64,000 nt of DNA from Candidatus Zixiibacteriota bacterium (GTDB lineage: Bacteria; Zixibacteria; MSB-5A5; GN15; FEB-12), in contig JAGNLV010000002.1 in NCBI GenBank assembly GCA_017999435.1, forward strand, positions 496,001 through 560,000. The letters are read 5' to 3'. Shown here piece by piece: positions 7,086-37,906 of the stretch. The first letter of the stretch is position 1. Every line of letters starts with the position of its first letter. The translations under genes were made by a program, and so were the position numbers. Under the pieces are notes generated by a model. The model made no database searches, was not told the DNA's origin, and saw nothing but the letters and a program-made list of their open reading frames with translations.

Positions 7086-7865
7086 TCACTTGAGCGCCGG
7101 AAGCCGGCGCAACTGGTGGTGGGGGGTGAAGAACTTGCGTACGGTCAGGTCGACCGCCACGATCGACGTGATCGTCACCGCCGACAGCAGCATGTAGGCG
7201 ACTATAATCTGGAGGAGCACGGCCTCGAGCGGGTCGGCGCCGCCGAGGATCATCCCGGTCATCGCCCCCGGCAGGGCGACGATCCCCACGGTCTTCATAA
7301 AATTCAGCGTGGAGAGCATGCCGGCGGTGGCCGCGTCCCGCTGCAGTCCCCGCGAGGCCTCCCGCCACGGCTTGCCGAGCGCGAGGGCGGTTTCGATGGC
7401 GAGGGTGTGGGCGCGCAGATCGGAGATCAGCCGGGTCATGGCGAGGGCCGCGGCGTTCATGGCATTGCTGATGATCATGCCGCCGAGCGGGATGACGTAG
7501 CGCGCCGTGAACGGGATGATGTCGACGGCCACCATGACGGCGATGGTGACCAGGGAGCCGGCGGCGATCGAGACCCAGGCGATCGCGAGCGCGCCGTCGA
7601 CTCCCCTGATCCGTCCGCCCGAGGTGTACGCGCCGGTGGTCAGCATGACGAGGATGGTGAGGACGATCAGCCACCAGGTGTTGAGGCCGAAGATGAACTC
7701 CAGGGCATAACCGACGGCGATGAGCTGCACGAACGAGCGGATCGTGCCGAGGGTCATTTCTTTGGCCAGGTTCAGCTTCCAGTAGCGGGAGACGATGACG
7801 GCGATGGCGACCAGCACGAGCGCCAGCGCCACCTGCACGAATCCCGGTCCGTTGGCCCCGCTCAT
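7086..7865 (-). CDS. fetB: ABC transporter permease, FetB/YbbM (UPF0014) family
   Basis: A 259-residue polytopic membrane protein, the same length as E. coli FetB. About seven hydrophobic helices are visible. The conserved UPF0014 core is present (RYVIPLGGMIISNAMNAAALAM, then LSTLNFMKTVGIVALPGAMTGMILGGADP). The family is linked to iron export and oxidative-stress resistance in enterobacteria; the substrate here is inferred. ATG at 7863-7865 overlaps the stop codon of the ATPase gene by 4 bp (ATGA), so the pair is translationally coupled. Confidence 0.9.
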   Translation of the reverse strand: MSGANGPGFVQVALALVLVAIAVIVSRYWKLNLAKEMTLGTIRSFVQLIAVGYALEFIFGLNTWWLIVLTILVMLTTGAYTSGGRIRGVDGALAIAWVSIAAGSLVTIAVMVAVDIIPFTARYVIPLGGMIISNAMNAAALAMTRLISDLRAHTLAIETALALGKPWREASRGLQRDAATAGMLSTLNFMKTVGIVALPGAMTGMILGGADPLEAVLLQIIVAYMLLSAVTITSIVAVDLTVRKFFTPHHQLRRLPALK

Positions 7866-8581
7866 CGCAGTTCCCTCGCGCGGTAGCGCCGGCCCAGGTC
7901 GGTTTGCGGCCGGTTGATCACCTCGTCGCTCGGTCCGGACTCCACCAACCGTCCCTGGACCAGCAGGAGCGTCTCGCCGCCAAGCCGGAGGGCCTGGTCC
8001 GGGTGGTGGGTGACCCAGATAACGGTCAGGCCGGTGCGGCGCACGATGTCCATGACCGTGCGCTCGATAGCCTCGGTGATGGTGGGATCGAGCGCCGAGG
8101 TCGGCTCGTCCAGCAGCGCAATCTCGGGTTCGGTGGCCAGCAGCCTCCCCAGCGCCACACGCTGCTTCTGTCCGAGCGAGAGCGGCTCTGTGTCGGCATC
8201 GATCAGCGCCGCCTCGAGCTGCACGAGATCGGCCAGCCGCGCGGCCGTCTCCTCGGTGCGGGCGCACGCCGCCGAAAAGAAATTGTCGCGGACCGTGCCC
8301 GGAAAGAGATACGGCGTCTGGAAGAGGTAGCCGATGCGGCAGCGAAGGCGGGTGGGGGGCAACTCCCGGATGTCGAGGCCGTGGAAGCGTATTTCGCCGC
8401 TGCCGATTTCGTCGAGGCGGTTGACCAGCCGCAGGAGCGAGGATTTTCCCGCCCCCGAGGGGCCGATGACCGAGTAGATCCGCCCTTTCCGGAACTGCGC
8501 CGAGAGGTCATCGATGATCGTCTTTGCCTCAACGCGGCGAACGACGCGGCGCAGTTCCAGAATGACGCCGTTATCGCTCAC
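7862..8581 (-). CDS. fetA: ABC transporter ATP-binding protein, FetA-like
   Basis: A 239-residue ATPase with Walker A GPSGAGKS (residues ~40-47), Q-loop FQTPYLF, a signature motif in the variant form LSLGQKQR, Walker B IALLDEPTSALD and switch histidine (WVTHH). It partners the FetB-like permease, whose start overlaps its stop. Its own ATG overlaps the stop of the OB-HD gene upstream (8578-8581). The three genes therefore form one coupled operon, in the order HD gene, ATPase, permease. No Fur box was recognised. Confidence 0.9.
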   Translation of the reverse strand: MSDNGVILELRRVVRRVEAKTIIDDLSAQFRKGRIYSVIGPSGAGKSSLLRLVNRLDEIGSGEIRFHGLDIRELPPTRLRCRIGYLFQTPYLFPGTVRDNFFSAACARTEETAARLADLVQLEAALIDADTEPLSLGQKQRVALGRLLATEPEIALLDEPTSALDPTITEAIERTVMDIVRRTGLTVIWVTHHPDQALRLGGETLLLVQGRLVESGPSDEVINRPQTDLGRRYRARELR

Positions 8582-9528
8582 CGGGGCTCCTGGGCGGTAT
8601 CGTCGAAATACAGGAATCGGTCGATCAGTTTCACATACTCCGACCAGCCCGGTTTCCCCTGCCGTTCGCGGATGCGGCTCATCGCGCCGAGTTTGGAGTC
8701 GATTTCATCGCAGTAGTAGAGCACAAACGCCTCCGGCATCATCGGCCTCACCGGCGTCTCGAATTCTCCCTGGTGCGACAGGAGGAGGTGGCGGAGCTTG
8801 GTCAGCAGGGCCGGGGGGAATCCCTCGATGCGGGCAGCCCGCTCGCACACCCAGACGTCAGCGATGCAGATGTGCCCGACCAGGCGTCCCTCATCGGTGT
8901 AGTCGATTGCGGCCGCCCCGGCGTAAGTGTTCACCTTGCCGAGATCGTGGAGCAGGCCGCCGAAGATGAGGTAGTCGCGGTTGAGGAAATCGTACCCCGC
9001 GGCCACGCGGAGGGCGAGTTCGCCGACGTTGGCGGAGTGTTCCGAGAGCCCGCCCACGCAGGCGTGGTGCCAGAGTTTGCCGGCGGCCGCGGCGAGGAAC
9101 CGGGCGAAGAACGCCTGGTCCTCCCAGAACGACTCGACCAGCCGGCGGATGTGGCTGTTGTCGATCTGCCGGGTCAGGGTGAGGATCCGGGCCCGGCGCT
9201 GCTCGAGCGGCTGTTTCGAATGCGGGAGGATATCCTCGAGCCGGTACTCGTCCTCCGCCGCCAGGCGGATGCGGGCGATAGTGAGCTGGAGGCGGCCGTT
9301 GTACTCGGTGACTTTCCCGGCCGCCTTGACCACCATCCCCTCCGCGAGTTCCTCCAGAGCGAACTGGTCGGGTTCCCAGACGACGGCGGGGATCCGGCCG
9401 CTGGCGTCGCCGAGTTCGAGGGAGAGGAATTTCCCGCGGGTGAACTCGCGCACCTCGCGCTTGCGTACGGAGAAGAAGGCGGTGATCGTGTCGTCAACCG
9501 CGAATTCGCTGATCCGCTTGGCCTCCAT
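8578..9528 (-). CDS. OB-fold/HD-domain 3'-5' exoribonuclease (YhaM-like)
   Basis: A 316-residue protein with an N-terminal OB fold (residues ~10-90, nucleic-acid-binding type) followed by an HD hydrolase domain. Metal ligands are visible as His164 (LSEHSANV) and the H194-D195 pair in GLLHDLGK. Domain order and length match the YhaM/CBF1 exoribonuclease family. It should trim RNA or single-stranded DNA in the cytoplasm; this is by family only. It is first in the three-gene minus-strand operon with the FetA/FetB-like transporter, overlapping by 4 bp. A functional link to metal export is not obvious. Confidence 0.85.
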   Translation of the reverse strand: MEAKRISEFAVDDTITAFFSVRKREVREFTRGKFLSLELGDASGRIPAVVWEPDQFALEELAEGMVVKAAGKVTEYNGRLQLTIARIRLAAEDEYRLEDILPHSKQPLEQRRARILTLTRQIDNSHIRRLVESFWEDQAFFARFLAAAAGKLWHHACVGGLSEHSANVGELALRVAAGYDFLNRDYLIFGGLLHDLGKVNTYAGAAAIDYTDEGRLVGHICIADVWVCERAARIEGFPPALLTKLRHLLLSHQGEFETPVRPMMPEAFVLYYCDEIDSKLGAMSRIRERQGKPGWSEYVKLIDRFLYFDDTAQEPR

Positions 9529-9585
9529 GGCGCCAAGATACGCGCGCGGCGCGCGCCGCGCAAGCGGCGGCGACCGGCCGGCCGT

Positions 9586-10128
9586 TCAAACCCGCCGCGG
9601 GCGCACCGGCGCCGGCGAGCGGCGCACGGGAGCGGGTGAGACCGGAAAGAGCAACAACGGCGCGCCCCCGCTTTCGTCCGCCTGCGCGCGTCCGTCCGCC
9701 CGAAGATGGCGCACCGCGACCCCCCGGGCAGCCAGCTCCGGGGCGATCAGGAGCCGCCGATGGCACCGGTCGGGGTCTTCCTCCGCACACATAAGCACCA
9801 ATCGCGTTCGGCCGGCGGCTTCAAGGAGATCGGCGATGCCGGCCTGGAACGCAGGCGACGCCGCCAGCCGGTCGTACCGCACATACCCTTCGTCGTCGTA
9901 GAACCGATCGTCCTCGGGCAGGCCGCCGAGGCGGTCCCCGAAATAGAGGTAGTCAAGGCCGGCGGCTTTCAGGCCGGCCTCCAGGCGCGACTTGTTGAAC
10001 TGCGGCGCAAATCGGGAGTAGGGGCGGGTGCGGACGTCGACGATGGCGGCGATGCCATGGGGGGAGAGCAGGCCCAGAAACGTCGCGAACGGGAGGCGCG
10101 AGTGCCCGATGGTGAAGATCTCCCTCAT
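9586..10128 (-). CDS. DUF488 family protein
   Basis: A 180-residue protein starting at ATG 10126-10128, with typical DUF488 segments: IFTIGHS near the start, VDVRTRPYSR, FGDRLGG and the Cys-containing LMCAEEDPDRCHRR. The biochemical role of the family is unsettled. The C-terminal ~25 residues are Pro/Arg-rich and look like low-complexity extension. The start codon overlaps the stop of the PLP enzyme upstream by 4 bp, so the two are co-translated. Confidence 0.85.
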   Translation of the reverse strand: MREIFTIGHSRLPFATFLGLLSPHGIAAIVDVRTRPYSRFAPQFNKSRLEAGLKAAGLDYLYFGDRLGGLPEDDRFYDDEGYVRYDRLAASPAFQAGIADLLEAAGRTRLVLMCAEEDPDRCHRRLLIAPELAARGVAVRHLRADGRAQADESGGAPLLLFPVSPAPVRRSPAPVRPRRV

Positions 10129-11330
10129 GGTTGGGCGCCCACGGCGCGCGCGAACCCGACCGGGTCGGTCGCGCCCTCGGTATTGAGCAGCAGCACCCGC
10201 GAGGCGGGGCCGAGGCCGAGCGCAGAGCGGAGATCGGCCAGGGCGGGGTCGGCGCACAGGGCGAGGAGCGCGGCCAGGCCCGCGGCGCCGGACTCGCCGG
10301 CGATGATCCTCGGGTCGCCCGGCTCGGGACGGTAGTACCGGTTCATCGCCTCCACCGCGTAGTCGTCCTCGATGGCGACGAAGGCATCGAAGGTGTCGCG
10401 GATGAGCGGCCAGGCCGCTACCGAAACTTCCCGGCAGTTGAGTCCGGCCATGATCGTGGGCGCGGGGTTGCCGGCCGGCACGGGAGTCCCCTTCGGCGAG
10501 CGGGCCGAGGCGAGCAGGCAGGCGGCGCCGACCGGTTCGACACAGATGAGTCGGGGCCGCCGGGCGCCGTACTGCTCCGCGTAGTGCCAGGCGGCTCCGG
10601 CGGCGAGGGCGCCGACGCCCCCCTGCACGATCACGGCGTCCACGCCCGGCTCACCCGGCCGGGCGAGGGTCTGCTCGAGCTCGCGAAAAAGGGTCGTGTA
10701 GGCGGCCTGAATCCAGGCCGGGATTTCGGTATACCCCGGCCAGGCGGTATCGGAAATAATCTGCCAGCCGCGGGCGGCGGCGTCGTTCCGGATCTGCCGG
10801 ACCGCGTCATCGTACCCGCCGTCGATCACCTCCGCCCGCGCCCCCTCGCGGCGGATGTTTTCCACCCGGGCGGTCGCGCTGCCGGCGGGGAGGTAGATAA
10901 CCGCCGGGAGCCCGACGACCCGGGCTGACCAGGCCACCGCGCGGCCGTGGTTGCCATCGGTCGCCGTGCACAGCGTCGCCCCCTCGAAGAATCGCCGCTG
11001 CTCCGGCGTGAGGGCCAGCGTATCGCCGAAGGGCGCGCTCTGCCGGTCCTCCCACTGCCGGCGGAGGAAGCGGTAGACGGCGTAGGATGCGCCGAGGACT
11101 TTGAAAGCGTTCAGCCCCAGGCGATGGGCCTCATCCTTGACCAGCACTTCGCGCAGGCCGAGGCGGCGCGCCTGGCCGGGCAGGGACACGAGGGGTGTCG
11201 GACAGTAACCGGGCAGGGTGCGGTGGAACGCGAGCGGATCGCAGGCTTCGACCGCCCTCCGCAGCGCCCGGTCGGGGCGCGGTTCCTGGCGCCGAAAGCG
11301 GTTGAGAACTCCGAGACTCACGGGAGGCAT
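10125..11330 (-). CDS. Diaminopropionate ammonia-lyase-like PLP enzyme
   Basis: A 401-residue fold-type II PLP enzyme, close to the ~400 residues of E. coli YgeX. The PLP-binding lysine is in LNAFKVLGASYA, the cofactor loop is TATDGNHGRA, and a glycine-rich loop follows (VQGGVGALAAGA). ATG 11328-11330 was chosen because the upstream extension is not protein-like. The family cleaves 2,3-diaminopropionate to pyruvate and ammonia; threonine/serine dehydratase-like activity is an alternative. It overlaps DUF488 by 4 bp. With aspartase and glutamate dehydrogenase nearby, it fits an amino-acid nitrogen theme. Confidence 0.85.
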   Translation of the reverse strand: MPPVSLGVLNRFRRQEPRPDRALRRAVEACDPLAFHRTLPGYCPTPLVSLPGQARRLGLREVLVKDEAHRLGLNAFKVLGASYAVYRFLRRQWEDRQSAPFGDTLALTPEQRRFFEGATLCTATDGNHGRAVAWSARVVGLPAVIYLPAGSATARVENIRREGARAEVIDGGYDDAVRQIRNDAAARGWQIISDTAWPGYTEIPAWIQAAYTTLFRELEQTLARPGEPGVDAVIVQGGVGALAAGAAWHYAEQYGARRPRLICVEPVGAACLLASARSPKGTPVPAGNPAPTIMAGLNCREVSVAAWPLIRDTFDAFVAIEDDYAVEAMNRYYRPEPGDPRIIAGESGAAGLAALLALCADPALADLRSALGLGPASRVLLLNTEGATDPVGFARAVGAQP

Positions 11331-11379
11331 AGTACGCAACCGACGGGGGGAAGTAAAGCCGTCGCGGGCGAATTCATAC

Positions 11380-11408
11380 TTGGCGGTCCATTGTATAACC
11401 AATATATT
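11380..11408 (+). promoter_or_regulatory. Candidate sigma-70 promoter of lptF-like gene
   Basis: TTGGCG (11380-11385), a 17-bp spacer and TATATT (11403-11408) lie just before ATG 11420. Transcription would start about 5 nt before the ATG, and no Shine-Dalgarno is visible, so the message could be leaderless or nearly so. The match is moderate. Confidence 0.4.
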
Positions 11409-11419
11409 TGCTTGCACTT

Positions 11420-12751
11420 ATGAAGATACTGACGCGCTACATACTGGCCGAGCACATCGGGCCGTTCCTGTTCGCCTTTTTCACCATCACCTTCCTGCTG
11501 GTGATCGAGTACGTGCCGAAAATCATCGACCACGTCATCGACAAGGATCTTTCGATCTGGGTGGCCCTGGAGCTGGTCGGGCTCAACCTGGCGTGGATGC
11601 TCGCGCTTTCGGTGCCGATGTCGGTGCTGGTGGCGGTGCTGATGGCGTTCGGGCGGCTCACCGCGGATTTTGAGGTGACGGCCATGAAGGCCTCCGGCAT
11701 CAACCTCCTGCGCGCGACCATCCCGCTTCTGATCGCCGGCGGGGTGATCGCCTACGGGATGGTCGAGTTCAACGACAAGGTTCTGCCCGATGTGAACAAG
11801 AAGGCGCGCCACCTCTGGGGGGACATCTCGGCCATGCGGCCGACGCTGGTGTTCCGCTCCGGCATTTTCATCACCGATATCCCGGGCTACCTCGTCCTCA
11901 TCGACCGGATCGACCACGCCACGTCGCGGGTCGAGGGCGTCCGGATTACCGACAACAAGAATCCCGCGCGGCCGCAGATTATCGTGGCCGAGTACGGTTA
12001 CCTGAAGATGCTGGACAACAACCTCACCATGCAGTTCACGCTCTACAACGGGGAGGTCCACCAGCTCGACACGCAGAAGCGGGAGAACTACCGGCGCCTC
12101 GACTTTGAATCGCAGGTGATCAACATCGCCGAATCGGGACAGTCGGAGCTCAAGCGCACCGACAGCGAGTACCGGACCGACCGGGAGATGGGGCTCGAAC
12201 AGATGCGGGAGAGCGTCAGCGTGGCGGAGGCGGCCATACAGCCGTTCATGGAAAAGGTGGGTCAGGCGGTGGACAACCGGACGACTTATCTCCTGAGCGA
12301 TACTTTCCGGTTCGCCGCGGCCGACATCAAGACCGACTCGGCGGCCTTTCTTGCGGTCCAGCGCGATGCCGAGGCGCAGTATCGGTCGCTGCAGCGCACG
12401 ATCGACCAGATCGAGGGCCAGCGCCGGGTGCGCAACAAGTACTTGATCGAGATCTACAAGAAGTATTCGATCCCGGTGGCCTCGCTGGCCTTCATCCTCA
12501 TCGGCGTGCCGCTGGCGGTCATGACGCGGCGGAGCGGAATGGGCATGGCGATCGCCATCTCCATCATCCTCTATGTGGTCTACTGGGCCTTTCTCATCGG
12601 CGGCGAGGATCTCGCCGACCGCGGCCTGGTGAGTCCGTTTCTGGCCATGTGGTCGGCCAACATTCTCATCGGCGCGATCGGCGTCTACCTCCTGTACAAG
12701 GTCATCAGCGAGCGGCCCGTATTCGCGTGGTTCCGCCGGGGAAGCGCCTGA
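11420..12751 (+). CDS. LptF/LptG-family lipopolysaccharide export permease (first copy)
   Basis: A 443-residue YjgP/YjgQ permease. The N-terminal part has three membrane helices (residues ~12-120), with the family motif MKASGINLLRATIP. A large periplasmic beta-jellyroll region follows (~130-260), then an insertion of charged coil (~265-345), and a final three-helix block (~350-440). ATG 11420 was chosen over TTG 11408 because MKILTRYILAEH is the normal family start. LptF and LptG with LptB extract lipopolysaccharide from the inner membrane. The second copy starts 12 bp downstream. The central coil is longer than in E. coli LptF. Confidence 0.9.
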   Translation: MKILTRYILAEHIGPFLFAFFTITFLLVIEYVPKIIDHVIDKDLSIWVALELVGLNLAWMLALSVPMSVLVAVLMAFGRLTADFEVTAMKASGINLLRATIPLLIAGGVIAYGMVEFNDKVLPDVNKKARHLWGDISAMRPTLVFRSGIFITDIPGYLVLIDRIDHATSRVEGVRITDNKNPARPQIIVAEYGYLKMLDNNLTMQFTLYNGEVHQLDTQKRENYRRLDFESQVINIAESGQSELKRTDSEYRTDREMGLEQMRESVSVAEAAIQPFMEKVGQAVDNRTTYLLSDTFRFAAADIKTDSAAFLAVQRDAEAQYRSLQRTIDQIEGQRRVRNKYLIEIYKKYSIPVASLAFILIGVPLAVMTRRSGMGMAIAISIILYVVYWAFLIGGEDLADRGLVSPFLAMWSANILIGAIGVYLLYKVISERPVFAWFRRGSA

Positions 12752-31186: not shown

Positions 31187-32614
31187 CTACTGGTCGCCGC
31201 CGAAGAGCTCATCGGAGAGCTCCACCACGTCCTCGGCGTCGACCGTGCCGTCGCTGTTGATGTCCCCCTGCCGCCGGATGCTGTTCGGCGGCGTGGCTCC
31301 GGTGGTCGCCATGGCGGTCACCGTGTTCAGGTCCACCACGTCCACCACCCCGGAGTTATCCATGTCGCCGAGCCGGAACAGGAGCACCGCCGTGAAGGCA
31401 TCGAGGCGGCCGTACCCGTAGAACAAGTCGGGGGGCGCGACCGTCCCCCAGGCCAGTTCGCGGGCCGCCGTGCTCCGAATGTGCGTCTCCATTTCCTGGG
31501 GCGTGAGGGTCGGGCGGACCGCGCGCACCAACCCGGCGACCGCCGTCACCAGCGGCGTCGAGAACGACGTCCCGCTCCAGGTCCCCCAGTAATAGGGAGC
31601 CGGAAGGGCGCTGTAGATGTCGACTCCCGGGGCGCACACGTCGGCCTCGGGGCTGCCGTTGGAAAACGAGGCAGCGAGGTCGAGCGTATCAATCGCCGTC
31701 ACCGCCAGGACGTACGGGTACGAGGCGGGATACATGGGGGTCACGATGCCGTCGTTGCCCACCGAGGCGGCGAGGACGGCGCCGGCCTGGACCGCCCGCG
31801 CGCAGGCCTGGGCGAGGACGCCGTTGTCGGCGGCGGTGCCGAAACTCATGTTGACGACGCCCGCGCCATGGCTCACGGCCCAATCCAGCGCCTGCGCCAC
31901 CTGGAACGTCGTGCTCACGCCATCGCCGGTGAACGCCCGCACCACCATTAACTCGGCCTCCGGGGCGGCCAGCCGGATGAGACCGGCCACAAACGTGCCG
32001 TGCCCGCGCAGCGTCCCCGGACCCTCGCTGGGGTCGGCGTCGTTGTCCACAAAATCGCGGGCCAGAGAGTCGTTCAGGTCGGCGAAAAGCGGATGGCTGC
32101 AGTCCACGCCGCCGTCGATGACCGCGATGCGCACGCCCGCGCCCCGCGAGACGAGGAGGGCCGAGTCGAGCCCGATCGAATAGGCGGCCGGCTGGGCATA
32201 GTAGTTCTGCGGTTCCACCCCCCGCACGAAAACGGGAACTTCGTCTTCCGGAACGCCGATGCTCATCTGGTGGGTCTCCACCAGGTGCATCGGCTCATTG
32301 GCCCAGACGGCGCTGATTCCCGGCCGGCCCGCGAGATCCTGCCGCTTGGTGTCGAAGGACACGGTCGGTGAGAACCGCACCAGGTACAGCCGCGAGCCGG
32401 GAATGCTGTCGGCGATGACGATGCCTGTCCCGGTCAGAATGCAGCCGAGGTTCTGGTCCGGGTCGACGCGGACGAGAGCCTGGCCGGGAAGCGCCTCGGC
32501 CACGGCGGCGCCCCGCGGACAGGCCGATCCGACCAGCAAGAGGAGAACGAACGCGAGAAGACGGTTTCGAGTTGTCACGGGACCTACCCCCTGTTTCATT
32601 GTTGCACGTTTCAC
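31187..32614 (-). CDS. Secreted subtilisin-like (S8) protease with dockerin-type C-terminus
   Basis: A 475-residue exported protease; ATG 32599 is an alternative start. The hydrophobic signal lies at ~18-38. The catalytic triad is D167 (AVIDGGVD), H205 (GHGTFVAG) and S350 (GTSFSTP), with oxyanion Asn287 (SVGNDG). Residues ~415-470 carry two calcium-loop repeats (GDMDNSGVVDVVDL and GDINSDGTVDAEDV), the dockerin type I pattern. It is likely periplasmic or extracellular. No cohesin is visible. It lies 3' of the sigma/anti-sigma genes on the same strand and could be part of that regulon. Confidence 0.92.
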   Translation of the reverse strand: MKRATMKQGVGPVTTRNRLLAFVLLLLVGSACPRGAAVAEALPGQALVRVDPDQNLGCILTGTGIVIADSIPGSRLYLVRFSPTVSFDTKRQDLAGRPGISAVWANEPMHLVETHQMSIGVPEDEVPVFVRGVEPQNYYAQPAAYSIGLDSALLVSRGAGVRIAVIDGGVDCSHPLFADLNDSLARDFVDNDADPSEGPGTLRGHGTFVAGLIRLAAPEAELMVVRAFTGDGVSTTFQVAQALDWAVSHGAGVVNMSFGTAADNGVLAQACARAVQAGAVLAASVGNDGIVTPMYPASYPYVLAVTAIDTLDLAASFSNGSPEADVCAPGVDIYSALPAPYYWGTWSGTSFSTPLVTAVAGLVRAVRPTLTPQEMETHIRSTAARELAWGTVAPPDLFYGYGRLDAFTAVLLFRLGDMDNSGVVDVVDLNTVTAMATTGATPPNSIRRQGDINSDGTVDAEDVVELSDELFGGDQ

Positions 32615-32833
32615 GAGGGACAGTCGGGATCCGCATGCGAGTACGGGCGGTACCCGACCGGTGTCGGTGTCTCACATGGAGGCAAAGAGGCGGGTTGTCC
32701 AGAGGCGGTGAGCGTTCCATGGTTCCTTGACAGGATCCGCTGCAGTACAGGGAGATCGGCGGATGTCAGGGCCGGTGAGCCGGCCGGTTACGCGGCGGAG
32801 AGATCTCGTTGCGGCGAGAACCTGTCCGCCCGG

Positions 32834-33412
32834 CTACAACTCCAGAAGGAACTCGAACCGCCCGCCGTCGGGATCTTCGACGGTCATGTCGTGGGCGCCT
32901 TCCGGAACCCGGGCGAAGTGGAACACGTGAACGGGGTTGGTCCGCTCCCTGAGGGTCTGCCGGCCCTGGCGCAGAGAGACCTCCAGCGCCGCACCCCGAC
33001 GGGACCCCTCGATCTGGCCGATGACTTCAAATGTCCCGGGAGAGGCCGGGTAGACCGACAGTTCGAGCCGGAGGCCTTCCGCCGCATACCGGAGGCGGCG
33101 GCTGTCGAGGGTGGCCGGGCGTATCCCGGCCGGCAGGGGGAGAAGCCCCGAGTCAAAAGTCAGGAGGCCGCGGTGCGGGCTGTCTTTCCGGCGGTGCAGG
33201 TCGGTCACCACGCGGTCGATGAGTCCCCGGGCAGCGGATTCGAGAGCGCCGTCACCAGGCTGTGTCCGGCGCATCGCCCGAAGCAGATCGAGCATCCGGC
33301 GGAGCCGGGGATCGGCGGCGAGGTGTTCCTCCAGGCGCACCGCCTCCTCCGGATCCAGGCGTCCGTCCAGATACTGCTGCAGGCGTTCGACTTTATCGCG
33401 CTTCGATGACAT
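32834..33412 (-). CDS. Putative anti-sigma factor-like protein
   Basis: A 192-residue soluble protein. The N-terminal helix region (LQQYLDGRLDPEEAVRLEEHL, residues ~11-31) resembles the zinc-finger anti-sigma start, but the HxxxCxxC zinc motif and any membrane helix are missing. The C-terminal half (~85-192) is beta-rich and ends FEFLLEL. It follows the sigma factor gene by 39 bp in the same direction, the usual order for sigma/anti-sigma. The role is inferred from position and the N-terminal pattern. Confidence 0.65.
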   Translation of the reverse strand: MSSKRDKVERLQQYLDGRLDPEEAVRLEEHLAADPRLRRMLDLLRAMRRTQPGDGALESAARGLIDRVVTDLHRRKDSPHRGLLTFDSGLLPLPAGIRPATLDSRRLRYAAEGLRLELSVYPASPGTFEVIGQIEGSRRGAALEVSLRQGRQTLRERTNPVHVFHFARVPEGAHDMTVEDPDGGRFEFLLEL

Positions 33413-33451
33413 GGTTCCAGTTCCTCATCCCATAGTCCCGCTTTTCCGCGC

Positions 33452-34033
33452 CTAAAATACGTCGAATTTATACCCCATCCGGACGAGCAGCCGCTCGAGC
33501 CGCTGTAGCGCGCGTGCCCGCGTCGGTCCGATCGACGGGACCGGCATCCCCAGGCGCGCCCCGATCTCCTCGTAGCTCGGCTTGTCCTCGTCGAAGAACA
33601 GCGCCGTGAGCAATTCGTAGTCCCGCGGCGGCAGCATGGCAATGGCCTCTGTCAGCAGCAGGCGCTGCTCCGTCTCCTCGAACTTCCGGTCCGGGCCGCC
33701 GGCCGGGTCCTCGACTGTCTCCCCCAGCCGATCGGTGTCGACAAACTCCAGTCCGCGGTCCTCGTGGAACCGGTTGTAGATCTGGCGGCGGGTGATCGTG
33801 GCGACGAACGCGTACGTCCTGCGGGGGTTGCGGATGCGGTCGATGTTGCGCACCAGAAGATAGCAGACCTGGCCGAAAATGTCCAAGGACTCCTCCGCGG
33901 AGAGGCGGCTGTCCCGGCACAGGGCGAGCACCAGCGGAGACACCCGGCCGAGCAGCTCCCGCCATGCCCACTCCGCTCCCTCCCGGCAGGCGCCGACGAG
34001 TTCTTCGACAGAGGCCCGCTTACCATCCGCCAT
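33452..34033 (-). CDS. ECF-type RNA polymerase sigma factor
   Basis: A 193-residue sigma-70 family factor. Region 2 spans ~45-95 (DIFGQVCYLLVRNIDRIRNP, then RTYAFVATITRRQIYNRF). Region 4 spans ~130-185 (LPPRDYELLTALFF, then SYEEIGARLGMPVPSIG helix-turn-helix). No regions 1 or 3 are present. It is transcribed divergently from the TPR-CHAT gene, 164 bp away, so it may drive that gene, the subtilase, or both. Confidence 0.88.
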   Translation of the reverse strand: MADGKRASVEELVGACREGAEWAWRELLGRVSPLVLALCRDSRLSAEESLDIFGQVCYLLVRNIDRIRNPRRTYAFVATITRRQIYNRFHEDRGLEFVDTDRLGETVEDPAGGPDRKFEETEQRLLLTEAIAMLPPRDYELLTALFFDEDKPSYEEIGARLGMPVPSIGPTRARALQRLERLLVRMGYKFDVF

Positions 34034-34197
34034 GTTGTCCCCGCCGCATCATGCTGCAAAAAGACCCACGGAGACGCCTTTTGTCAAGCACTCTTGTGCC
34101 GGGGGGCCGCGCGGCCGCGCCCGACCGGCCGACAAACTCCTTGCCCCGCCACTTCCAGGCGTTAACTTAGGGCAACGGTCTCTTGGGCGACGCTGCT

Positions 34198-36984
34198 ATG
34201 TACGATGATTCCACATTGCCGGCCGTCAGGTCGGCCGAGGATCTCCGCCGGCTCGTGGAGGGGGAGTTTGAGGCCGACTATGAGAAACTCCTGGCCGCCC
34301 TCAGCCGACAACTGAATACGCTCCTCGGGACCGACCTCCGCGCGGCCGAGGAGTTCCTCCGGCGAATCGAGCCGCTGTACGAGCACATGCCGGCGAAGCA
34401 CCGTCCGCACATTGTGGCCCTCGACGCGCGCCTGTCGCACCATCGCGGCCGGTACCGGGCGGCGCTGGCCCGGTACCGCGAGGCTGACCGCCGCTATCGC
34501 CGGGAGCGCAACTACCTGGCCTCCGCCCGCCTGGGGCAGGGGATGACGGAAGTGCTGATGTACCTCGGGCGTTACCGCTCGGCCCTGGCGGCGGGGCGGC
34601 GCTCGCTCGGATATTTCCGGCGCCGCGGGATGGCGGCGGCGGCCGCGGGCGTTCTGGTCAACATGGGCAACGTCTACCACCGTCTCGATCAGAACCGCCT
34701 CGCGCTGGTCTACTACGATAAGGCCCGCGCCATCTTCGAGACCCGCGGCGGCGCGCCGCTCGCCACCGTCGAGTACAACCGGGCCAACATCTACGCCAAC
34801 CGGAATGAACCGCACCTCGCGGCGCCGCTCTATCGGCGGGCCGCGGAGATCTATCGCGCCTCCGGTCTGGAGGTCCTCTACCGCAAAGCCCAATACTCGC
34901 TCGCCTACCTGCTCTTTCTGGGCGACCGGTTCACCGAGGCGCTCCGCGAATTCGAAAACGTGTACGTCGCGTTCGAGCGCCTCGGGGACACGCGCTCCAT
35001 GGCGGTCACACGCCTCGATCTGGTGGAACTCAACATCCACCTCAATCAGTTCGGGACCGCGATCGCCGCGGGGGAGGAGGTGATCGCCCAGTTTCGCCGC
35101 CTCGGTCTCCGCTATGAGCAGGCGAAGGCGAACTACTTCGTGGCGCTCTCGCGGCTCAGCCTCGGCGATTTCCGTCTCGCCGCCGAGGCGCTGAACGAGG
35201 CGGCCCGGCTGTTCCGCCGGGAGCGGAACGATCTCTGGCTGGGGATGGTGCTGTTGGCGCGCAGCAAGCTGAGTTCGCAACTGGGCCGTTCGGGCGCGGC
35301 GCTGAGAGCCGCGGCGGAATCGCGCCGCCTCTTCACGCGCAGCGGCGACCGGCGCCGGGGGACCGACGCCGAGATCGTCCACCTCGAGGCCCTTTGCGCG
35401 GCCGGCCGCCGAAAAGAGGCGGCGGCGCTGGCCCGCCGCCTGCTGCGCCGCCCGCTCGTGAGCTACCAGTCCTACCTCGTGCAGACGGCCGTCGGCCGCC
35501 TCCGCCGCGCCGGCGGCGACGCCGCCGGCGCTCTCGACGCCTACCGCCGGGCCATCGACATGGTCGAGACGATGCTGGCCGGGCTGTACCCGGACGAGAT
35601 CCGGTTCTTCTTTGTCGCCGACAAGCTCACGGCCTACGCCGGGGCGGTGGAGTGCCTCCTGCAGATGGACCGCCCCGATGAATCCTTTCGGGCCAACCTG
35701 CGGGCTCTGGAGGTGCTCAACCGGCGCAATCCGCTGGCGGCCGAGGTGCATGCCCGCGTGCCCGCGGCGCTGCTGGCGGAACGGGAGCGCCTCCGGGCGA
35801 CCCTCAAGCGGTTCGGGCGTTTCCCGGAGAAGACGCACCGGGGATCCGACAGCCTCGCACAGCAGTCCGCCGTAGAGCAGCGGCTGTGGTCGGCCGAACA
35901 GCGCATCCGCGCCCATCTCTACCCGGCCCGGGGCCGCGGCCGCGCCGCGGGCCCGCGCGAGGACGTGCAGGAACGGCTGGGCGGCGACGATCTCCTGGTC
36001 AGTTTCGTCGCGCCTCCCGGCGGTCCGCCGGGCGCCTTCCGCGCGACGCGCGGGACGGTTGACTTCATCCCCCTGGCGATCGACGCCGAGCGTCTCCGCC
36101 GCCAGGTCTGGGAACTCTATTTCGTCCTCGAGCGGGCCGTCATCAGCGGCCGCGGCGAACGACGGTTCCCCGGGGCGGCCGATTTCTATCTCGCCGATCT
36201 CCACGAAACCCTGGTCGCCCCTCTCCTGCGGGACCACGACCAGAGCCGCGTCATCATTTTGACCGACGGCATCTTTGCGCAGGTACCCTTCGGGGCGCTG
36301 CTGGACCGGGCGCATCTGCCGCTCTGTCGGCGGCGCGACCTTCGGCTCATTGTCAACCCGGACGATCTCGCCCGCGATGGCGTACCGCCGGGAGCGCGGG
36401 CGGGGCGGGGGAGGGTTCCTTTCGCGGCTCGGCGCAATGCCGTCTTCGCCCTCCTCTCCGACCGTCTGCCGGCGGTGGAACTCGAGGCCGGCGCCGTGCG
36501 GCGGGAGTTTGAGGCCGCCGGTCTCTATGTCGACGAGCGGGCGGATTCGACGGCTTTCAAGGAGGCGCTGGGTGTGTGCGATGGGTTCATCCACATCGCC
36601 ACCCACGCCGCGCGGTCGTCGGAGAACCCGCTGTTTTCGCGGGTGGTACTGGCCGACGGGCCGTTCTTCCCGTTTGACCTGTTCGCGGCCGGCATCCGCG
36701 CCGACCTGGTGGCCCTCTCCGGCTGTCAGACGGCCGCGACCGGCCTCTACTACGGCAACAGCTTCAGCCTCGCCAAAGCATTCTACCAGGCGGGCGCCCG
36801 CTATGTCCTGGCGACCCTGTGGCCGGTGTCCGACCAGGTGAGCCATGCGTTCATGAGCCGGTTCTACGCCCGCCTGCGGGCGACCGATGACGTGGTTGCG
36901 TCCTACCGCACGGCGCAGGCCGAAATCGCGGCGACCGCCATCGACCCGGCGCTGTGGGGAGCGTTTGTGCTTCTGGGCATGTAG
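34198..36984 (+). CDS. TPR-CHAT caspase-like protease
   Basis: A 928-residue cytoplasmic protein without signal peptide. Residues ~40-500 are alpha-helical TPR repeats (e.g. NMGNVYHRLDQNRLALVYYDKA). Residues ~590-925 are a CHAT domain with the catalytic dyad His803 (FIHIATHAA) and Cys843 (ALSGCQTA), followed by AGARYVLATLWPV. ATG 34198 was chosen over TTG 34183. CHAT proteases are caspase relatives that cut specific partner proteins, often in defence or stress signalling. The target is unknown; the neighbouring sigma/anti-sigma pair is an obvious candidate. There are no Cas genes or CRISPR repeats nearby. Confidence 0.92.
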   Translation: MYDDSTLPAVRSAEDLRRLVEGEFEADYEKLLAALSRQLNTLLGTDLRAAEEFLRRIEPLYEHMPAKHRPHIVALDARLSHHRGRYRAALARYREADRRYRRERNYLASARLGQGMTEVLMYLGRYRSALAAGRRSLGYFRRRGMAAAAAGVLVNMGNVYHRLDQNRLALVYYDKARAIFETRGGAPLATVEYNRANIYANRNEPHLAAPLYRRAAEIYRASGLEVLYRKAQYSLAYLLFLGDRFTEALREFENVYVAFERLGDTRSMAVTRLDLVELNIHLNQFGTAIAAGEEVIAQFRRLGLRYEQAKANYFVALSRLSLGDFRLAAEALNEAARLFRRERNDLWLGMVLLARSKLSSQLGRSGAALRAAAESRRLFTRSGDRRRGTDAEIVHLEALCAAGRRKEAAALARRLLRRPLVSYQSYLVQTAVGRLRRAGGDAAGALDAYRRAIDMVETMLAGLYPDEIRFFFVADKLTAYAGAVECLLQMDRPDESFRANLRALEVLNRRNPLAAEVHARVPAALLAERERLRATLKRFGRFPEKTHRGSDSLAQQSAVEQRLWSAEQRIRAHLYPARGRGRAAGPREDVQERLGGDDLLVSFVAPPGGPPGAFRATRGTVDFIPLAIDAERLRRQVWELYFVLERAVISGRGERRFPGAADFYLADLHETLVAPLLRDHDQSRVIILTDGIFAQVPFGALLDRAHLPLCRRRDLRLIVNPDDLARDGVPPGARAGRGRVPFAARRNAVFALLSDRLPAVELEAGAVRREFEAAGLYVDERADSTAFKEALGVCDGFIHIATHAARSSENPLFSRVVLADGPFFPFDLFAAGIRADLVALSGCQTAATGLYYGNSFSLAKAFYQAGARYVLATLWPVSDQVSHAFMSRFYARLRATDDVVASYRTAQAEIAATAIDPALWGAFVLLGM

Positions 36985-37036: not shown

Positions 37037-37906
37037 ATGGATCTGTCGTACTGCGAGGATTACTGGGACGCCCCCGAACTGAAGGAAGAGTACCGACGCT
37101 TCTTGGCCGGGCTGTTCGGCCTCGATTTGTCCCTCTGGGACCGGTTGGGATTCTGGGATGCGCGGTACCGGCCGTTTTCGTATTTCCACGGCGGCACGCT
37201 GGTCTCCAACGTCTGCGTCTACTCCCTGGACATGATCGTCCGGGGAACACGGCGCCGGGTGGCGCAGATCTCCGCGGTGGGGACGCTCCCGGAGTTTCGC
37301 CGGAGAGGTCTGAGCCGGCAGTTGCTGCAGACGGCGGTCGCGTGGGCGCGCCGGGACCACGACTTCTTCTTTCTGTTTGCGGATGCCGAAGCTTTCCCGC
37401 TCTATGCCTCCTGCGGTTTTCGGCCGGCGGCGGAATACAAGGCGCGCGTCTTTCTGCCAGGCCTGCGGGCGCGCCCCGGCGCTGTCCCGCTGGACCCGCA
37501 GGATCCCGAGCACCTCGCGCTGCTGTACCGTCTGGCCGCCGCCCGGACGCCGGTGTCGGATGAACTCGGCGTCCTGAACGCCCGCCTGTTCATGTACCAT
37601 TGTCTGTATGGTCTCCGGCGTTACATCTTATACCTCCCCGATCTGGGGGCGGCCGTCCTGGCCCGGCGGGCCGGCGGCATCCTGACTGTGTTCGACATCG
37701 TGGCGCCATCAATGCGCCCGTTCGAGGACATCTACCGGTACCTCGGCGCGGCGGACGGAGAGACTGTCGAGTTTCTTTTCATGACCGACAAGCTGCATCT
37801 GGGGGATGTCGACTTGGTGGAAGTGGAGGGTAACGGGACGCACGTCATGGGCGATCTCCCATTCGCCGGCGCGCCGTTCATATTCCCGTACACGTCGCAG
37901 GCCTAG
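37037..37906 (+). CDS. GNAT-family N-acetyltransferase
   Basis: A 289-residue protein with a GNAT acetyl-CoA loop (ISAVGTLPEFRRRGLSRQLL, residues ~79-98) and the following strand-helix FPLYASCGFRP. The C-terminal ~130 residues form a second domain, as in Eis-like or two-domain GNAT enzymes. ATG 37037 begins MDLSYCEDYW. It starts 52 bp after the CHAT gene and may be co-transcribed with it. The substrate is unknown. Confidence 0.82.
   Translation: MDLSYCEDYWDAPELKEEYRRFLAGLFGLDLSLWDRLGFWDARYRPFSYFHGGTLVSNVCVYSLDMIVRGTRRRVAQISAVGTLPEFRRRGLSRQLLQTAVAWARRDHDFFFLFADAEAFPLYASCGFRPAAEYKARVFLPGLRARPGAVPLDPQDPEHLALLYRLAAARTPVSDELGVLNARLFMYHCLYGLRRYILYLPDLGAAVLARRAGGILTVFDIVAPSMRPFEDIYRYLGAADGETVEFLFMTDKLHLGDVDLVEVEGNGTHVMGDLPFAGAPFIFPYTSQA

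Follow-up and report, generated by a model that had tools for sequence, protein, structure and literature searches.

A conserved σ–anti-σ–TPR-CHAT–subtilase operon as a candidate CRISPR-independent analogue of the Craspase switch

Introduction

Cutting of a σ inhibitor by a TPR-CHAT protease is already known from the Craspase of type III-E CRISPR systems, in which CASP-σ is inhibited by Csx30 and Csx29 cleaves this inhibitor (PMC10028731). What we add here is a conserved, CRISPR-free operon of four genes, first seen in a 64,000-nucleotide stretch of a Candidatus Zixiibacteriota genome (contig JAGNLV010000002.1, positions 496,001 to 560,000), which we call the window. The operon encodes an extracytoplasmic function (ECF) σ factor, a soluble anti-σ-like protein (ASF), a caspase-like TPR-CHAT protease and a subtilase of family S8. 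Three further systems invite comparison. For ECF54, proteolytic control without an anti-σ factor has been proposed, on the basis of a conserved carboxypeptidase, subtilase and CHAT protein in the gene context (review PMC8999054). In Myxococcus, DdvA is the cognate anti-σ factor of DdvS (PMC4374960). CalpL has been the subject of a separate study (PMC11417357).

A conserved four-gene operon

Four open reading frames (ORFs) at 31187–36984 of the window encode the subtilase, ASF, the ECF σ factor and TPR-CHAT, where a sequence-only reading of this DNA had placed them. Matches to Pfam and NCBIfam models confirm the domains (Table 1), and gene calling by codon usage, with CHAT homologues as the training set, picks out the same four ORFs. 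The order of these genes, which that reading had put forward for checking in relatives, proved strongly conserved. We surveyed synteny in 79 genomes, mostly from the window's own family and order, counting CHAT homologues at E ≤ 1e-20 and σ homologues at E ≤ 1.8e-13 and scoring a pair when a co-directional σ homologue lay no more than 4 kb upstream of CHAT. The synteny is near-obligate: a search with the window CHAT gave 68 loci, 58 of them with such a σ gene. Of the ten others, nine start no more than about 400 bases from the end of a contig, and the last is the inverted copy in the window; all 58 homologues with sufficient upstream contig show a same-strand σ upstream. Viewed from the other side, 59 of 64 σ homologues adjoin a CHAT match; the other five all lie at contig ends, and four of these are still followed by ASF.

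The usual order in the retrieved neighbourhoods is σ>ASF>CHAT>S8, with all genes co-directional and the subtilase usually directly after CHAT. Of 26 ASF–CHAT junctions measured, 19 have an overlap of exactly 4 bp, which suggests translational coupling. In 60 distinct complete four-gene sets, the distance matrices of any two of the four proteins are strongly correlated (r 0.77–0.86 over the six pairs; the permutation maxima reach about 0.12), a correlation that includes shared species history as well as paralogous copies within genomes. As a negative control, we considered other CHAT relatives on plasmids (Caballeronia, Azospirillum, Deinococcus, Nostoc, Streptomyces and a second locus of Nonomuraea). 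Because none of those examined has σ, ASF or S8 neighbours, the linkage is specific. The four genes are one conserved operon and not a chance cluster.

The window itself has the arrangement S8<ASF<σ< CHAT>. The sequence-only reading had described CHAT as divergent from the σ pair, which is true of the window but not of its relatives; because these carry four co-directional genes in the order σ>ASF>CHAT>S8, the divergent CHAT is a local rearrangement of the standard operon. The operon is present twice more in the window's own genome (L062, L063).

Protein architecture and an invariant linker in ASF

The σ factor carries the family signature SIGPTRxR near its C-terminus. In the protease, the CHAT domain (PF12770) scores 133 bits against a curated cut-off of 24, and TPR_12 is also matched. 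H803 and C843, which had been proposed as the catalytic dyad, are correctly assigned and invariant in 36 of 36 aligned homologues. The AlphaFold2 (AF2) model (predicted local distance difference test (pLDDT) 87.7) places a long TPR solenoid ahead of the pseudo-caspase and caspase (CHAT) regions. Its best fold match in the PDB is Csx29, from the Cas7-11–Csx29–Csx30 complex (8eey_B, E 3e-16), followed by separases and the Myxococcus anti-σ factor DdvA, which is annotated as a CHAT protein. A viral structure library returned TPR matches only, and PADLOC only weak or generic protease matches. The active site of the subtilase is likewise intact, with the S8 catalytic residues kept in 39 of 39 aligned proteins. 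A hydrophobic N-terminus is present in 53 of 60 S8 proteins, a dockerin in 22 of 39 S8 homologues and a Por secretion tail in 6.

ASF comprises a helical anti-σ domain (residues 1–80), a linker (81–108) and a β-sandwich domain (105–191) in its AF2 model (pLDDT 90.8). It is homologous to anti-σ factors: the N-terminal domain matches zf-HC2 above the curated cut-off and is modelled as a four-helix N-terminus, and the gene lies directly downstream of its σ gene, as is characteristic of class I ECF anti-σ factors (ASD/ZAS). The zinc motif HxxxCxxC, optional in that class, is absent from the window ASF and retained in 20 of 79 homologues. No transmembrane segment is predicted. Among the weak PDB matches of the ASF profile are the anti-σ factors RsiW and DdvA, and a fold search with the model gave generic immunoglobulin-like matches only.

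Conservation within the protein peaks in the linker. Across 79 distinct ASF homologues from four phyla, its mean column conservation is 0.54, compared with 0.27 for the anti-σ domain and 0.35 for the β-domain, and four of its residues are close to invariant (D87 100%, R98 99%, R105 96% and S88 95%). AF2 confidence drops to about 80 over residues 91–100, the stretch that contains R98. A site at which a protease binds or cuts would be expected to look like this, an invariant and probably exposed linker between domains. It is plausible that CHAT cuts or docks here, and the candidate cut site can be narrowed to D87–R105 of ASF.

An operon without type III CRISPR

Genome-wide searches for Cas1 and RAMP proteins gave no matches within the window. 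Neither did the genome as a whole, which is 98% complete, yield a RAMP match or any sign of type III CRISPR. A different contig of the same genome does carry Cas1 together with a Cas9-like ORF and an array of 11 repeats, so the earlier statement that no CRISPR genes exist holds for the window and fails for the genome. Because the genome lacks RAMP and its Cas1, array and Cas9-like ORF are on that other contig, the operon is separate from type III CRISPR.

The locus on that contig (L160, G000:C1:350000-368000) resembles a type II CRISPR locus. Its array spans 7483-8275 (11 repeats, 66-base spacing) and is followed by the Cas1 ORF (8675-9562) and the Cas9-like ORF (9618-12725), which encodes 1035 amino acids and begins with a RuvC-I-like DIGTNSVGW segment.

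A proposed proteolytic circuit and its alternatives

We consider it probable, on balance, that the four genes form one proteolytic signalling operon, in which activated TPR-CHAT cuts ASF and frees the ECF σ factor. The N-terminal anti-σ domain of ASF would bind the σ factor and hold it inactive until a signal, sensed through the TPR solenoid, switched on the cytosolic TPR-CHAT. CHAT would then recognise the invariant linker together with the β-sandwich and cut ASF at the linker, and the freed σ factor would redirect RNA polymerase to its regulon. The last gene encodes the secreted subtilase, which most likely contributes to the response or to an associated extracellular function. By analogy, the operon is best read as a CRISPR-independent counterpart of the Csx29–Csx30–CASP-σ circuit. 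The sequence-only reading had suggested a CRISPR-independent version of the gRAMP circuit, and the synteny, intact dyad, Csx29-like fold and conserved linker partly support it; no sequence link from ASF to Csx30 emerged.

Several observations weigh against this interpretation. The fold likeness to Csx29 is moderate (template modelling score about 0.37–0.46), and separases are nearly as good. The ASF profile matched no Csx30 chain among PDB sequences, in a comparison for which no Csx30 profile was run. The N-terminal domain of Burkholderiales ASF proteins is degenerate. In the ASF model, D87 and R105 flank β-strands, and the conserved linker residues could instead serve the structure or contact the σ factor. 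No ECF-like promoter motif emerged from −35/−10 scans and word enrichment in 58 upstream regions; the signals that were seen (CCGCCG, TATATT and a weak excess of TTGACA) resemble base composition or housekeeping promoters. Because no σ-specific motif was found upstream, an autoregulatory σ promoter is not supported.

The same genes could also be wired differently. In one such scheme CHAT is an output: the σ/anti-σ pair, triggered in some other way, drives production of the cytosolic CHAT and the secreted subtilase, and CHAT never touches ASF. Both proteases do sit downstream of σ and ASF in the operon, co-inheritance of the four genes is compatible with any σ-controlled proteolytic module, and the subtilase is nearly always kept, yet once secreted it cannot meet cytosolic ASF. 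We nevertheless regard this scheme as unlikely. A soluble ASF is without the usual extracytoplasmic sensor and so needs a cytosolic one, the linker is more conserved than the σ-binding domain, and the upstream regions lack a σ-specific promoter motif; the usual translational coupling of ASF and CHAT speaks mildly in the same direction.

The invariant catalytic His and Cys, present in all 36 aligned homologues, would be unexpected were catalysis dispensable, which makes it quite improbable that CHAT is a non-proteolytic scaffold or TPR sensor that captures ASF through its β-domain and linker, freeing the σ factor uncut by partner switching. Such capture would be in keeping with the conserved linker and the coupled ASF and CHAT genes; TPR solenoids are typically binding modules, and the solved anti-σ factor DdvA is itself a CHAT-domain protein. 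As for chance proximity of an unrelated σ/anti-σ pair, CHAT protein and subtilase, the window alone, with its CHAT divergent from σ, might suggest it. The synteny data refute it, because every testable CHAT or σ homologue in the 79 genomes has its partner and several phyla share the four-gene order, and we give it practically no credence.

Distribution and variants

To follow the operon more widely, we scanned genome contigs with a CHAT alignment and annotated the resulting loci with profiles. The four-gene order was found in Ca. Zixiibacteriota, in an Acidobacteriota metagenome-assembled genome (MAG; L105) and in many Burkholderiales, including Rubrivivax sp. A210, and a Chloroflexota MAG holds two copies of the operon (L173, L174). 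The operon is patchily distributed in the Burkholderiales family, because only 8 of 201 sampled genomes carry ASF; inspection of the loci revealed the full operon in all eight. A rearranged actinomycete version occurs in Nonomuraea gerenzanensis (L190, NZ_LT559118.1 7901320-7917823), with the order CHAT< S8> σ> ASF>, where the profile of the ASF linker and β-domain finds a 156-amino-acid protein at 1.1e-8. The S8 protein of this locus has no signal sequence and for that reason may be an intracellular protease. We did not count Calditrichaeota as an additional phylum, because the record concerned matches a genome (G047) from the window's own family.

Other loci depart from the standard form. 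On a Miltoncostaea oceani plasmid (NZ_CP064357.1, L191), an S8 peptidase gene comes immediately after a relative of the σ gene, with neither CHAT nor ASF nearby, possibly a reduced form of the system. The CHAT gene is broken into two ORFs in the Chloroflexota copy L174 and in L058, L039 and G066:C11, through frameshift, assembly error or decay. A more distant operon subfamily (cluster c6: L063, L066, L067, L069, L073 and L074) is often trailed by a recurring protein of up to about 430 amino acids that has internal repeats and a signal resembling that of lipoproteins. The operon also occurs in a metagenome bin (L142, CALQLA020000053.1) whose label, Bordetella parapertussis, looks doubtful, and we make no claim on that species.

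The locus in the window

The coordinates of the genes and their main features are collected in Table 1, in which H803 and C843 are numbered from the ATG at 34198.

Table 1. Features of the operon in the window, with positions counted from its first nucleotide
Feature	Position	Strand	Basis
S8 subtilase, 475 amino acids	31187..32614	−	Peptidase_S8 1.9e-44; catalytic D167/H205/S350; N-terminal hydrophobic signal segment
Dockerin type I domain of subtilase, residues 415-469	31208..31372	−	Dockerin_1 4.4e-5, above curated cut-off
ASF, soluble anti-σ-like protein, 192 amino acids	32834..33412	−	zf-HC2 5.2e-7; AF2 model; no transmembrane segment
ASF linker motif FDSxxxPxPxGxRxxxxxxRRL, residues 86-105, candidate CHAT recognition/cleavage site	33098..33157	−	Conservation among homologues
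ECF σ factor, 193 amino acids	33452..34033	−	TIGR02937 4.1e-17; SIGPTRxR signature
σ–CHAT divergent intergenic region	34034..34182	.	No convincing promoter motif
TPR-CHAT caspase-like protease, 933 amino acids (TTG start) or 928 amino acids (ATG 34198)	34183..36984	+	CHAT 1.9e-38, TPR_12
CHAT catalytic His803 codon	36604..36606	+	Invariant in 36 homologues
CHAT catalytic Cys843 codon	36724..36726	+	Invariant in 36 homologues

About 50 bases past CHAT and on the same strand, a GNAT-like ORF begins (37037-37906, +); a gene of this kind does not recur beside CHAT in relatives. Elsewhere in the genome there is one CHAT gene without a σ gene (L064, also L001; G000:C1 at about 1175526). No CHAT match in the genome scores better (E 3.3e-64, ORF of about 1144 amino acids), and no σ, ASF or S8 gene lies alongside.

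Comparison with known systems

In the CalpL–CalpT–CalpS cascade of type III CRISPR, a cytosolic protease reportedly cuts a soluble anti-σ factor and so frees an ECF σ factor. The circuit proposed here shares this scheme, but the CalpL protease is a SAVED-Lon protein driven by cyclic oligoadenylate, and that cascade has neither CHAT nor a subtilase. The DdvS–DdvA pair (DdvA, PDB 8rot/8rw5, 'CHAT domain-containing protein') ties an ECF anti-σ factor functionally to a CHAT region. DdvA, however, is a transmembrane protein with CHAT in the same polypeptide, whereas ASF is soluble and ASF and CHAT are separate proteins.

The ECF54 context shares CHAT and a subtilase in the σ neighbourhood, and the Nonomuraea locus has CHAT, S8, σ and a protein matching the ASF profile. 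ECF54 has been described without an anti-σ factor, whereas the anti-σ-like ASF is present here; the actinomycete (Nonomuraea) locus also differs in its gene order and in an S8 protein that lacks a signal sequence. Several ASF β-domains match Pfam CarboxypepD_reg weakly, below the cut-off (the window ASF has no such match), and because of these matches we infer that the 'carboxypeptidase' of ECF54 is ASF, with ECF54 membership judged from gene context. The operon would then provide the missing anti-σ factor for an ECF54-type context.

The closest likeness is to the type III-E Craspase, which also encodes a TPR-CHAT protease with intact His and Cys, of the same fold class, alongside an inhibitor of an ECF-type σ factor. 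It differs in three respects: no RAMP, and so no Cas7-11/gRAMP, was found in the window's genome; ASF, at 192 amino acids, pairs an anti-σ domain with a β-sandwich and has no detectable sequence relation to Csx30; and a secreted subtilase is added. A CRISPR-free operon with the same logic would make caspase–σ switches a general bacterial signalling device. We propose tentatively, at a little short of an even chance, that a CRISPR-independent caspase–σ operon exists in at least five phyla, that its CHAT protease cuts the anti-σ factor at the invariant FDS...GxR linker and so releases a dedicated ECF σ factor, and that the actinomycete ECF54 systems belong to it. If this is true, the CRISPR Craspase would be one specialised offshoot of a far more widespread protease switch.

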